Source of the DNA: Candidatus Zixiibacteriota bacterium
GTDB taxonomy: Bacteria; Zixibacteria; MSB-5A5; WJJR01
Direction of reading: 5' to 3'
NCBI GenBank assembly: GCA_040752595.1
Contig: JBFMGX010000006.1
Location: 1 to 64,000 of the forward strand
Length of the DNA stretch: 64,000 bases
Below are positions 7,385 to 62,105 of this stretch, in pieces. The position numbers and the translations under genes are program-made. Position 1 is the first letter of the stretch; the number at the start of each line of letters is the position of its first letter. Below the pieces are notes generated by a model. The model saw only the letters and a list, made by a program, of their open reading frames with translations. It did not search any database and had not been told where the DNA came from.

Positions 7385-7449
7385 GACTCCTCCCCTTGAT
7401 CAATCCCGGCCGCTCACCATTCCCCGGCCGGATTCCATGATATGGAGGT

Positions 7450-8856
7450 TCATGTTGCCCCGTCGTCGGGGAAGACCTTCCCCGGATTGAGGATGCCGTC
7501 GGGGTCGAAAGCCGCCTTGAGACGACGCATCAGTGCAAGCTCCGCGGGAGCGACCGCGATCGGCATGTAACGCTTCTGGGTCCAACCGATGCCGTGTTCG
7601 CCGGAAATCGCTCCGCCCATCGCGACCACGCGCTCGAACAATTCTGTGATCGCTCCCGGCAGACGATCATTCCATTCGGCGTCGGACAAATCGCGTTTAA
7701 GGATGTTGACGTGGAGATTGCCGTCGCCGGCGTGGCCATAAGTGATCGCCGAAAGCCGGTGGCGGGTGCAGATGTCGCGGACGACCCGCACCAGTTCAGG
7801 GAGACGGGCACGGGGGACAACGGTGTCTTCCTCTTTGTAGATCGACACCGACTTGACCGCCTCGCCGATCCCGCGACGCATCTGCCACAGATCATCCATC
7901 CGGGTCCGGTCATCGGCGAGCAACACATCGCGTGCGCCTTCACCAAGACAGATCTCCCCTACTGTCTCGGCCTCTTTCTCCAGAAGCGCGCGGTCATTGC
8001 CATCGAGTTCGAGCATGAGATGCGCATCGGCGTCGGATTGCGGGAATGACTTGCTGAATTTGGCCTCAGCGCAACGGACGGCCGCACCTTCCAGGTATTC
8101 GGCGACCGAAGGAGTCAGCCGCGCCAGGAATACCTTGGTCAATGCCCGTGCCGCCGCTTCGCCATCATCGAACGGCGCCACAAGCATGATCCGCTCCCGG
8201 GGTAAAGGGATCAGCTTCAGCGTGGTTTCGGTGATCACCGCCAGTGTCCCCTCGGAGCCGATCAGCAACTGCGCCAGATTGTATCCGGTGACATTTTTGA
8301 ACAGCTTCCCGCCCCAGCGGATCAGATCGCCGTTGGGGAGGACCGCCTCGACGCCGAGGACATAGTCCTTCGTCACGCCATATTTCAGCGCGCGCGGTCC
8401 GCCGGCACACTCGGCCAGATTCCCGCCGAGCAGGCACGACCCGCGGCTGGCCGGATCGGGCGGATAGAACAGACCCTGCGCCTCGACCGCTTCCTGCAGG
8501 ACCTGCGTGATCACACCCGGCTGCACGACGGCGACAAGATTGTCGGTGTCGATTTCGAGGATGCGGTTCATCCGGTCCAATGACAGACAAACACCACCAC
8601 GCACTGGAAGTGCCCCGCCGGACAAACCAGTTCCTCCGCCGCGCGGCGTGACCGGGATGCGTCGCGACGAACAATGGCGCATGATCGCCTGCACCTGTTC
8701 GGTTGTCTGTGGTCTTACTGCCACCTCGGGCGGGAAGCACAGGTCTTCCGTCTCATCGGCGCCGTAAGTGTCAAGGTCAGTCTTGTCGGTGAGGACGAAG
8801 TCCGCGCCGCAGATGGCACGGAGGATGGCGAGGTCCTGCGGCAGAATGTGGTTCAT
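7450..8856 (-). CDS. glcD: FAD-linked 2-hydroxyacid oxidase, GlcD/LldE-type subunit
   Basis: The 468-residue protein shows an FAD_binding_4 (PCMH) domain (about 35-215) with PRGGGTGLSGGA, LGGNLAECAGG and LLIGSEGTLAVIT. The C-terminal FAD-oxidase domain has the metal/substrate motif GHAGDGNLHVN, the GEHGIG motif and the terminal DPDGILNPGK. These fit glycolate oxidase subunit GlcD or D-lactate dehydrogenase, which oxidise 2-hydroxyacids and pass electrons to a partner or quinone. No GlcE or GlcF neighbours are present, so the substrate is uncertain between glycolate and D-lactate. Confidence 0.88.
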   Translation of the reverse strand: MNHILPQDLAILRAICGADFVLTDKTDLDTYGADETEDLCFPPEVAVRPQTTEQVQAIMRHCSSRRIPVTPRGGGTGLSGGALPVRGGVCLSLDRMNRILEIDTDNLVAVVQPGVITQVLQEAVEAQGLFYPPDPASRGSCLLGGNLAECAGGPRALKYGVTKDYVLGVEAVLPNGDLIRWGGKLFKNVTGYNLAQLLIGSEGTLAVITETTLKLIPLPRERIMLVAPFDDGEAAARALTKVFLARLTPSVAEYLEGAAVRCAEAKFSKSFPQSDADAHLMLELDGNDRALLEKEAETVGEICLGEGARDVLLADDRTRMDDLWQMRRGIGEAVKSVSIYKEEDTVVPRARLPELVRVVRDICTRHRLSAITYGHAGDGNLHVNILKRDLSDAEWNDRLPGAITELFERVVAMGGAISGEHGIGWTQKRYMPIAVAPAELALMRRLKAAFDPDGILNPGKVFPDDGAT

Positions 8857-8976
8857 CGGAGAGTGCCGGGAAGTCGCGATCGGTTGATCAAGCTGTTTAA
8901 TCCAGAAACGCCTCGGCAGGAGCCTCGCCCTCCCGAAGACGCTGGTAGTGGTTGATCGAGTCCATAGGCATCGGAT

Positions 8977-9615
8977 CTACTCTGCCGCTCGGGCGCGATA
9001 TGTCATCGTCGTCAACTCCATGGGAGGGAAGGAACCGAGCGACCGCGCCGCCGCTGCCACCACGGCAAAGGGTGAATCATAGCGGATGCGAATCGACCAC
9101 GCGCTCCAGGAACCGTCGAAGGAAATCACCCACTGGCCATCCTGCCAGCGCATCCTCCCGGTGACTTCCGGATAACGACTTTCGGACCAACGCAATGCGA
9201 AGGTCGAATCGCCGGGTTCGGCAACGACAGTTCCCCGGCCGCGTGAGACGACCACGGTATCGTCATTGTTGACCAAGACGCGGCGAATCGATACGGACCG
9301 GCCGGTGCTGTCGGGTGTCATGGTCAGTGTGTCGGCGTAGTTCACCATGAAATAGCGCCCATTGCCGACCCAACGCGCCGCACCGACCGAGCTGAAGTAA
9401 CGGATCGGGTCGAAACGGAAGAGGCCCATGGAGTCTTGGGTCTGCCCGGCAAGGGGAATCATCGCGAGGAACACGAGGCAGAGGCCGGCGAGTGTTCTTC
9501 GTAGGGTGCGTGCTCCGCACGCACCGACAGGGGGCTCAAAGCCCCCTGTCCATGACGCGTCATGGTGAGTGCGGAGCACCCACCCTATTGCTCTGTGTGT
9601 CCTGCAGAGACTCAT
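8977..9615 (-). CDS. secreted protein of unknown function with an in-frame repeat in its N-terminus
   Basis: The 212-residue frame starts with ATG at 9615, three bases after the stop of yjbQ, which supports this start. Residues about 38-58 (RRTLAGLCLVFLAM...AGQTQ) form a clear signal-peptide core. The 29 or so residues before it are encoded by a palindromic repeat (9502-9587). No start codon lies between the repeat and the hydrophobic core except the ATG inside the core. The mature part (about 150 residues) is beta-rich, with FDGSWSAWSIRIRYDSPF near the end. I do not recognise a family. Confidence 0.6.
   Translation of the reverse strand: MSLCRTHRAIGWVLRTHHDASWTGGFEPPVGACGARTLRRTLAGLCLVFLAMIPLAGQTQDSMGLFRFDPIRYFSSVGAARWVGNGRYFMVNYADTLTMTPDSTGRSVSIRRVLVNNDDTVVVSRGRGTVVAEPGDSTFALRWSESRYPEVTGRMRWQDGQWVISFDGSWSAWSIRIRYDSPFAVVAAAARSLGSFPPMELTTMTYRARAAE
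9502..9587. repeat. MITE-like palindromic repeat inside a gene
   Basis: Terminal inverted repeats TAGGGTGCGTGCTCCGCAC (9502-9520) and its near-exact complement at 9569-9587 (18 of 19 match) enclose an ACAGGGGGCT/AGCCCCCTGT palindrome and CATGACGCGTCATG. The whole element stays open in the reading frame of the secreted protein gene on the minus strand. It resembles the Rickettsia palindromic elements in behaviour, not in sequence. Confidence 0.75.
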
Positions 9616-17868: not shown

Positions 17869-17940
17869 GTGCCACGGGTCTTCAGACCCGTGCCGTGTTC
17901 CTTCGCATTGGAGTTCACGGGTCTAAAGACCCGTGGCACC
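17869..17940. repeat. GTGCCACGGGTCTT palindromic repeat, uninterrupted copy
   Basis: A 72-bp element begins GTGCCACGGGTCTTCAGACC and ends GGGTCTAAAGACCCGTGGCAC. It has two ACGGGTCTnnAGACCCGT palindromes facing each other across about 20 bases. The second copy in the window lies inverted at 61086-61337 and is interrupted by another element at the TA that is intact here (17924-17925). Confidence 0.85.
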
Positions 17941-59871: not shown

Positions 59872-61008
59872 TTACAGAATCACGAGTTCAGCCCGCAACG
59901 CCCCGGCTTCACGCAGGGCCTGGAAAATGGCGATGATGTCGCGCGGTGTGGCGCCGATGGCATTGAGACTCTCCGCCACCTCCTGGATGGTCGTTGACCC
60001 GGGGAGACTCACGACATGGGCTTCCTCATCTGAGACCGTGATGGCGCTCTGTGTTTCGACGACCGTCTGACCCTGCGACAGCGGCGCCGGCTGGCTGATT
60101 ACCGGCTGCGACTGGATCTGCACGGTGATGCCGCCATGGGCGATGGCGACCGGCGCGATCGACACGTGCTGCCCCGCAACAATCGTACCCGTCTTCTCGT
60201 TGATCACCACCCGCGCCACGTCGTCCGGTTCAACGGAAAGGGATTCCAGCTCCGCGATGAAGGCAGCGCGACTCTGTGTCGCCGCATAATCGGCGGGGAG
60301 CGAAACTCGAACGGAAGCCGGCCCGGAAACCTCCGCGATGGGCCCCCAGCGTTTGGCGATGACCGCCGCCACCCGTTGCGCCGTCGTCCAATCGGGATCC
60401 AGCAGGGCCAGTTCGACGCCGGTCGGATCATCCGTCAGTCGAACCAGCGGCTCCTCCAATGTGGCTCCGCCGGGCACACGGCCGACCATGCTGTAATTCC
60501 GCGTCACTCCGGCTCCCCCTTGCGCCTCGACCGCAAAACCGCCGGTCGAGACGGGTCCTTGTGCCGTCGCGTGTACCGTGCCGTCAGCACTGGCCAGCGG
60601 CGTCAACAAGAGCGTCCCGCCACGCAGACTCTTGGCATCGCCGATCGATGACACCGTCACGTCAAAGCGCTCTCCCCGCACGGCCAACGGCGACAGCGAT
60701 GCCGTGACCATGACCGCCGCCACGTTCTTCACTTTGACCTGTTCCGGGTCGACCGTGATCCCCATGCGGCGCAGCATGCTGGTCAGCGTCTGGACCGTGA
60801 ACTTCGTTCCCTGCCCGTCGCCCGTCCCTTCCAGACCGACAACCAGTCCATAGCCGAACAGGTTTGCCCGCCCGGTCCCGGCCACGTGGGCGATGTCCTT
60901 AAGGCGGACGGCTGCCAAGGCATCATTGGGAGTAATAACCGCCATCCCCAGGACCGGAAAGGCGAGCATCACGAATAACCGACGCGTGGCACTTATCCGT
61001 TCATTCAC
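59872..61008 (-). CDS. flgI: flagellar P-ring protein FlgI
   Basis: GTG 61008 follows AAGGAG by eight bases. The 378-residue protein has a signal peptide (LFVMLAFPVLGMAVIT...ALA), then RLKDIAHVAGTGRANLFGYGLVVGLEGTGDG, VAAVMVTASL and the ending AESLNAIGATPRDIIAIFQALREAGALRAELVI. It forms the periplasmic P ring. It is separated from flgH by 447 bases of repeats. Confidence 0.95.
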   Translation of the reverse strand: MNERISATRRLFVMLAFPVLGMAVITPNDALAAVRLKDIAHVAGTGRANLFGYGLVVGLEGTGDGQGTKFTVQTLTSMLRRMGITVDPEQVKVKNVAAVMVTASLSPLAVRGERFDVTVSSIGDAKSLRGGTLLLTPLASADGTVHATAQGPVSTGGFAVEAQGGAGVTRNYSMVGRVPGGATLEEPLVRLTDDPTGVELALLDPDWTTAQRVAAVIAKRWGPIAEVSGPASVRVSLPADYAATQSRAAFIAELESLSVEPDDVARVVINEKTGTIVAGQHVSIAPVAIAHGGITVQIQSQPVISQPAPLSQGQTVVETQSAITVSDEEAHVVSLPGSTTIQEVAESLNAIGATPRDIIAIFQALREAGALRAELVIL

Positions 61009-61085
61009 AAGACTGCTCCTTGACGGCTTCCCTATCCCTTCTGACCAAAGACCATTCGACATCCCACACTGTATATGAGTTGCTC

Positions 61086-61337
61086 GTGCCACGGGTCTTT
61101 AGCAGGCTGCTGAAGAAGGTCACTCCATGTCATTCTGAGCCCCGCCGCTGTTGGGCGGGGCGAAGAATCTGCTGTCGGTTTCATAGGTAGAAACAGCAGA
61201 TCCCTCGTCCGCCAAAGGCGGACTCGGGATGACAATGGTCGGTCAGGTCCGCATTTCTTGGGTTTTTCAGCAACCTGTTAGACCCGTGAACTCCCAAGGG
61301 TGGAGCGGGGCGGCACGGGTCTGAAGACCCGTGGCAC
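61086..61337. repeat. GTGCCACGGGTCTT palindromic repeat interrupted by a second element
   Basis: The outer repeat is the inverse of the copy at 17869-17940. Left part 61086-61101 and right part 61279-61337 join to give the same sequence when the inner segment is removed. The joining site is a TA. Confidence 0.85.
61102..61278. mobile_element. 177-bp MITE-like element with TA target duplication
   Basis: Terminal inverted repeats are CAGGCTGCTGAAGAA (from 61103) and, on the opposite strand at the right end, CAGGTTGCTGAAAAA: 13 of 15 match. A TA flanks both ends (61100-61101 and 61279-61280). The interior holds a TGTCATTCTGAG/GAAGAATCTG motif, a GCCCCGCC/GGCGGGGC palindrome and a GTCCGCC/GGCGGAC palindrome, and no gene. 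The TA duplication points to Tc1/mariner- or IS630-type mobilisation. The ends do not match the transposase end at base 125. Confidence 0.75.
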
Positions 61338-61455
61338 ACCGCTTCACTCGGGTTATGAAACCGACTCCAGACAGTGGATGCTTCGCTCAACACGACACAC
61401 TCGTTCTCTAGCTCCCCGAGGTGTTCTTCAGCGACCTGTCAGAGTACCGCGTGAA

Positions 61456-62076
61456 TCAGAACAACCAGTTCAGGAATCGTGTAATGAACCCCGGCCGTCC
61501 GGCGTTGCTCGAGGCACCTTTCCCTCTGTAGCCGATCTGGGCGTCGGCGATCTGGTATGAATAGACGGTGTTGTCCGGGCCGACGTCTTCCGCCCGCACG
61601 ATCCCCGTCAACGTCAGCATTTCCTTGTCGTTGTTGATCCCGACAACACGATTCCCCTCGATCACCAGATCCCCGTTGTCGCGCACCCCGACGACCTGAA
61701 CGGTCATCTGCGCCTTCAGTTGCCCGGCACGGGCCGTCTGACCTTGATTGTCAGATTGATTCGACAAAGTCGCGTCGGCGCCGAACAGACCGATGAAGTC
61801 GAAGGGCCCCACACCAGGTCCGCCCTCGACTTTGAAGTCGCTGCTCTTCTTTGTGTTTGTGCTTACGGCATTCCGTGCCGTCGCCGATTCCACGATCAGA
61901 ACCGTCAACAGGTCGCCGACCTTGTGCGCTTTCAGGTCGGTATAGAGAGAGGCGCTGCGAATCTGCGTGTACGGCGCCGCGGCCAATCCGGCCGACCAAC
62001 CGACAAGGAACACGGCCGTCAGGCCGAGGCGCATCGGCCGCGACCGTAGACTCCCAAGACGATGATCCTGCAACAT
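61456..62076 (-). CDS. flgH: flagellar L-ring protein FlgH without a lipobox
   Basis: ATG 62076 has a GAGG site seven bases away. The 206-residue protein has a signal peptide (LGLTAVFLVGWSAGLAAA), then SLYTDLKAHKVGDLLTVLIVESATARN, TVQVVGVRDNGDLVIEGNRVVGINNDKEMLTLTGIVR and YSYQIADAQIGYRGKG. FlgH is normally a lipoprotein, but no cysteine follows the signal region here. It forms the outer-membrane L ring. Confidence 0.93.
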   Translation of the reverse strand: MLQDHRLGSLRSRPMRLGLTAVFLVGWSAGLAAAPYTQIRSASLYTDLKAHKVGDLLTVLIVESATARNAVSTNTKKSSDFKVEGGPGVGPFDFIGLFGADATLSNQSDNQGQTARAGQLKAQMTVQVVGVRDNGDLVIEGNRVVGINNDKEMLTLTGIVRAEDVGPDNTVYSYQIADAQIGYRGKGASSNAGRPGFITRFLNWLF

Positions 62077-62105
62077 CACGTCACCTCACAAAGGTATGGG
62101 CACGG

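Follow-up and report, generated by a model that had tools for sequence, protein, structure and literature searches.

What moved a short element into a dispersed palindromic repeat that lies between two flagellar genes of a Candidatus Zixiibacteriota genome, and what did the site look like beforehand? The locus belongs to a contig of which we analysed a stretch of 64,000 nucleotides (hereafter the window). Very probably, a trans-acting IS5 transposase inserted a 175-bp MITE at TTAG in a RAYT-associated REPIN, where it split the loop of one REP. In this scheme an IS5-family enzyme would have acted on CAGGYTGCTGAAAAA ends, and the MITE would have entered a TTAG (YTAR) target and duplicated 4 bp. 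The REPIN is a small mobile repeat in its own right, of another class than the MITE, and is associated with a RAYT (an HUH tyrosine transposase). The ends, the duplication, the copy number, the restored palindrome, the intact IS5 in a related genus, the polarity of the tags and the REP-flanked RAYT are all read directly from sequence.

The insertion and its limits

Flanked by flgH and flgI, the nest belongs to a flagellar gene cluster on the minus strand (rod/hook-type flg gene, flgA-like gene, flgH, flgI). It comprises the following features, given with their neighbours and with the copy used for comparison:

59872..61092, minus strand: flgI, downstream neighbour, ORF from the first GTG (PF02119, E=9.4e-124)
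61086..61102, plus strand: interrupted REP, left part, with tag GTGC at 61086-61089, then CACGGGTCTTTAG (joined flanks, tag survey)
61099..61102, no strand: target-site duplication TTAG, left copy (joined-flank comparison and copy statistics)
61103..61277, no strand: IS5-type MITE, 175 bp (too short for a transposase gene; copy number, folding)
61103..61117, plus strand: left terminal inverted repeat CAGGCTGCTGAAGAA (comparison of copies)
61263..61277, minus strand: right terminal inverted repeat CAGGTTGCTGAAAAA (comparison of copies)
61278..61281, no strand: target-site duplication TTAG, right copy (joined-flank comparison and copy statistics)
61282..61288, plus strand: interrupted REP, right part ACCCGTG (joined flanks)
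61314..61337, minus strand: second REP of the doublet, intact, with the GTGC tag on its outer side (palindrome search, tag survey)
61456..62079, minus strand: flgH, upstream neighbour of the insertion (PF02107, E=7.7e-46)
17869..17939, no strand: uninterrupted paralogous REP doublet (REPIN) for the empty-site comparison (sequence comparison)

The true start of flgI is probably further inside the ORF, near 61008. Promoter- or terminator-like signals were looked for in the flgH-flgI nest region and none was found; the hairpins might influence flgI. A lone IS5-type end (TTCTTCAGCGACCTG, abutting TCAG) occurs in 61338-61438, about 160 bp from the MITE, and may be a degraded second copy. We rejected the assignment of this end (61424-61438) to a second MITE, since its alignment was unconvincing.

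Positions 61099-61281 read TTAG, CAGGCTGCTGAAGAA ... TTTTTCAGCAACCTG, TTAG. The termini of the MITE are thus CAGG...CCTG, and the bases G and T outside them are part of the TTAG duplication. The first-pass annotation had placed a 177-bp element at 61102-61278: the insertion is real, but each limit has to be shifted by one base. The imperfect inverted ends that it described are present, and they are seen again across the two-ended copies of the same genome. The search for further copies, named at the time as the test that could refute the proposal, returned at least 46 matches in this genome, including at least 29 two-ended copies, and the proposal withstood it. No ORF within the element reaches 90 aa, and the element folds far better than shuffled sequence (z -6.2). 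Being short, non-coding, bounded by terminal inverted repeats and present in many copies, it is a MITE, a well-known class of elements (PMC10969869). Searching the literature for the sequences of the ends, arms and host palindrome gave nothing relevant; identity with the Chunjie MITE is conceivable. The closest copies in the genome are only about 90% identical, and recent activity of the MITE in this genome is therefore not demonstrated.

Deleting 61103-61277 together with one TTAG yields GTGCCACGGGTCTTTAGACCCGTGAACTCC, in which a perfect REP palindrome is restored. Read on the reverse strand, the copy at 17869-17939 has exactly the left 24-bp REP of this joined site but a different spacer between its two REPs. 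The uninterrupted opposite-strand copy put forward earlier is thereby matched in the left REP but not in the spacer, and the unit to be deleted is 175 bp plus TTAG. As a before/after pair the comparison holds, but with a paralogous copy of the repeat instead of the same locus prior to insertion, so that the probable pre-insertion state is taken from a paralogue and not from the corresponding site of a related genome. That a non-autonomous element transposed into another dispersed repeat is supported. The nest gives a relative chronology at base-pair resolution, with the REPIN first and the MITE later, and the 4-bp duplication fixes the transposase class of the MITE.

Several IS families, IS5 included, are known to insert into REPs (PMC1525189). 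The present case resembles these in that a DDE element sits within a REP (for Neisseria REPs, that paper gives a member of IS5), but it involves a MITE and is a single clear case, with no specificity for REPs shown. Only one of the 29 two-ended copies lies clearly in a REP. By a rough inferred estimate, fewer than 0.1 such cases are expected (of some 46,000 YTAR sites, roughly 10 would fall in REPs with a TTTA/TAAA centre; restricting the count to intergenic sites raises the figure), and one case against this expectation is no proof that the MITE targets REPs. It is an ordinary MITE-in-REPIN nest, unusually clean, and a clear new example of known biology. At another MITE copy of the genome (contig C3, 14048-14212, L005), the right flank resembles a REP half (TAGGCCCGTGGCACC) and the left flank does not, possibly a rearranged second insertion into a REP.

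A duplication of four base pairs

The length of the duplication was assessed in the 29 copies of the genome with both ends recognisable, by dealing out the right flanks at random in 20,000 shuffles. In the 4-bp register the two flanks matched exactly in 10 of the 29 copies, against 2.6 by shuffling, and none of the 20,000 shuffles reached 10. The outer positions agreed in 27 and 21 of the 29 copies (13.8 and 12.8 expected). The inner TA alone showed no excess (13 versus 11.5), because TA is the preferred target common to most sites. Copies of the MITE in other phyla had exact 4-bp duplications in 29 of 55 cases, against 7.6 by shuffling. The target consensus is YTAR and, taken with the CAGGYTGCTGAAAAA ends, it indicates the IS5 family, in which 4-bp YTAR targets are duplicated. 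A 2-bp TA duplication of the kind made by IS630/Tc1-mariner elements was rejected, since the flanks match in the 4-bp register; the TA-targeted transposition of the first-pass annotation is accordingly replaced by an IS5-type event.

Autonomous IS5 elements with the same ends

Scanning viral contigs for YTAR followed by the MITE end identified an intact element of 1320 bp (L124, positions 124-1443) with perfect ends and CTAG/CTAG flanks. Its 377-aa protein matches the NCBIfam IS5 model NF033581 above the cut-off (E=9e-87) and also Pfam DUF772 and DDE_Tnp_1. A relative of this element, 1312 bp long with the same ends and CTAA/CTAG flanks, is found in a genome of the sister genus (L133, positions 1339-2650 in G005), where it encodes an intact transposase of 362 aa (NF033581, E=7.7e-72). 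An autonomous transposase with these ends, which had been suggested as something to look for, thus exists in the sister genus and on a viral contig, but not in the assembly of the window itself. There, neither end pairs, nor protein search, nor PF01609 (no match) revealed an IS5 transposase with these ends, although in a 50-contig assembly absence is not certain. The one related reading frame encodes 211 aa, an IS1182/IS5-like fragment without matching ends. A partner in the same genome is usual but not required. We infer that an IS5 enzyme mobilised the copy in the window, and this enzyme would have been supplied by an IS since lost from the genome or missing in its assembly.

The MITE shares with the IS5 family (NCBIfam transpos_IS5_4, DDE transposase) and its MITEs the 4-bp YTAR duplications and the ends common to L124 and L133; it differs in lacking a transposase and in having an interior unlike those of the two ISs. 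Beyond the ends, the subterminal regions also appear unrelated, and an origin of the MITE by simple deletion from L124 or L133 is therefore not demonstrated. Genomes G004 and G006 contain full-length relatives of the MITE, flanked by exact duplications of CTAA or CTAG. Four MITEs of 149-160 bp on viral contigs (L116, L123, L128, L130) have the same IS5 ends, exact TTAA/CTAA duplications and unrelated interiors. An IS5 relative in genome G144 (L349) was dismissed as a partner, as no matching end pair was found.

Two other accounts of the locus can be weighed against these data. Insertion at TA of an element of 177 bp, with G as its first base and T as its last, by a transposase of the Tc1/mariner or IS630 type would explain why TA stands on both sides of the MITE and near most of its copies. 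We regard it as highly improbable, given that the outer bases of the flanks agree far beyond expectation while the inner TA contributes nothing, and that the autonomous elements bearing CAGGYTGCTGAAAAA ends encode IS5 transposases. Just as improbable is the prospect that dispersed repeats recombined or underwent gene conversion and so produced the arrangement, with no transposition of the MITE at this place. Both the MITE and the REP are dispersed, and the flanks of some MITE copies do not match, as recombination would leave them, but the copy in the window has exact ends and an exact 4-bp duplication, and its removal restores a perfect REP.

The host repeat is a REPIN

The palindrome of the host repeat, CACGGGTCTnnAGACCCGTG, occurs at least 51 times in the genome at up to two mismatches, against none for the reversed-pattern control, which bears out the earlier description of the repeat as dispersed. 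A GTGC tag stood on exactly one side in all 38 REPs read with their flanks, and the doublets are inverted with the tags outward. On contig C27, a 172-aa Y1 gene lies directly between host palindromes (7422-9357, L292) and matches NF047646, the REP-associated tyrosine transposase, with 98.3 bits for a cut-off of 80. The host repeat thus has the one-sided tetranucleotide tag, the outward doublets and a cognate RAYT gene between its own REPs; it is a REPIN as PMC3116915 and PMC2817692 define the term, except that its tag is GTGC and not GTAG. This tag excludes it from the GTAG REP superfamily. It also differs from the described systems in abundance, with about 51 palindromes among the matches listed, whereas more than 100 REPs per genome are usual (PMC2817692).

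Other Y1 or RAYT-like genes of the genome lie on contigs C49, C3, C34, C16 and C18 (L293, L294, L296-L298). Several are flanked by their own distinct palindromes, e.g., CAAGGGGCTGAAGCCCCTTG and GGTCAGCCCAAGGGCTGACC, which supports the pairing of the C27 RAYT with the host REP; several REP families may coexist in this genome. The C27 RAYT is followed by two further REPs, spaced at similar distances (about 615-648 bp). The stretches C32:51-125 and C29:3766-3840 are apparently one REP doublet, with one copy at a contig edge, possibly an assembly duplication.

Tagged hairpins inside the MITE

The interior of the MITE contains two inverted hairpin arms, both starting with TGTCAT:

61128..61169, plus strand: TGTC-tagged hairpin arm 1, tip CCCCGCCGCTGTTGGGCGGGGC (arm collection, spacer survey)
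61199..61234, minus strand: TGTC-tagged hairpin arm 2, tip TCCGCCTTTGGCGGAC (arm collection, spacer survey)

A triplet of the stem was complementary in 59 of 61 arms of the genome versus 13.5 by shuffling, although these arms are related copies and the figure is not a count of independent events. The triplet comes in five versions (TCT/AGA, TCC/GGA, CCC/GGG, CCT/AGG and GCT/AGC). Such covariation could result from hairpin-templated repair, with no need for selection. The tips are swapped as modules (CGAAGC, TCCGCC..GGCGGAC, CCCCGCC..GGCGGGGC and others), and almost every copy of the genome has spacers of 10 and 28 nt from end to arm.

CGTC/TGTC-tagged REPs have been reported without a transposase association (PMC3733652). 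The arms resemble them in the TGTC tag, the AT first stem pairs, the inverted dimers and the complementary stem variants, but only the dimers are an independent result, as the tag and the AT were part of the search pattern. They differ in that the stem, instead of a continuous 8-9 bp with a loop of 4-5 nt, is interrupted by GAG/GA breaks and carries larger tips, and in their placement between IS5 ends. No arm lies beside any of the seven Y1 matches, and we discarded the view that the arms are REPs linked to a RAYT.

The arms might instead be the mobile unit, with the IS5-like ends as mere passengers, since TGTC dimers without IS5 ends exist in a genome of the same genus (G002) and in viral contigs. 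Of all the accounts that we weighed this one is the least probable: in the genome of the window both the duplication and the break in the alignments fall at the terminal repeats, the spacers are fixed, and the four viral MITEs keep the ends and duplications around unrelated interiors.

Distribution across phyla

Searching GTDB genomes for the MITE end followed by 4-24 nt and GTCATTCTGAG returned 106 stretches. The matches listed (80 of the 106) lie in MAGs titled Nitrospirae, Nitrospinae/Nitrospinota, Deltaproteobacteria and Acidobacteria/Terriglobia. The spacing between end and TGTC was 10-11 nt in 79 of 87 cases, though the pattern permitted more. Within the 133 genomes of its own phylum, the exact pattern matched in the genome of the window only. 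The design of an end, 10-11 nt and a TGTC hairpin, with paired covarying stems and modular tips, is thus found in this genome and in MAGs of four other phylum-level labels. Old inheritance, transfer or repeated capture might each account for this spread.

In 15 genomes of other phyla, 15 of 39 sampled TGTC arms, unselected for ends, lay within such MITEs. TGTC dimers had IS5 ends in G006 and G004, and the copies sampled in G002 had none; with these and the 15 of 39, we rejected the idea that all TGTC arms are borne by MITEs. It is conceivable, though we lean against it, that MITEs of the IS5 type serve TGTC/CGTC-like REP dimers as a vehicle across phyla. If so, these REPs, described without a transposase, would spread as cargo of IS5-type MITEs, a testable answer, and part of the distribution of the palindrome TGTCATTCTGAGCGAAGCGAAGAATC, which several of the searched environmental genomes contain dozens of times, would be explained. 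What deserves further work is the composite MITE shared across phyla.

TGTC hairpins were also found nested in, or in tandem with, themselves (TGTCATTCTGAG...TGTCATTCTGAGCGAAGCG), at L257, L263 and L259 and on contigs C193, C672 and C824 of genome G144.
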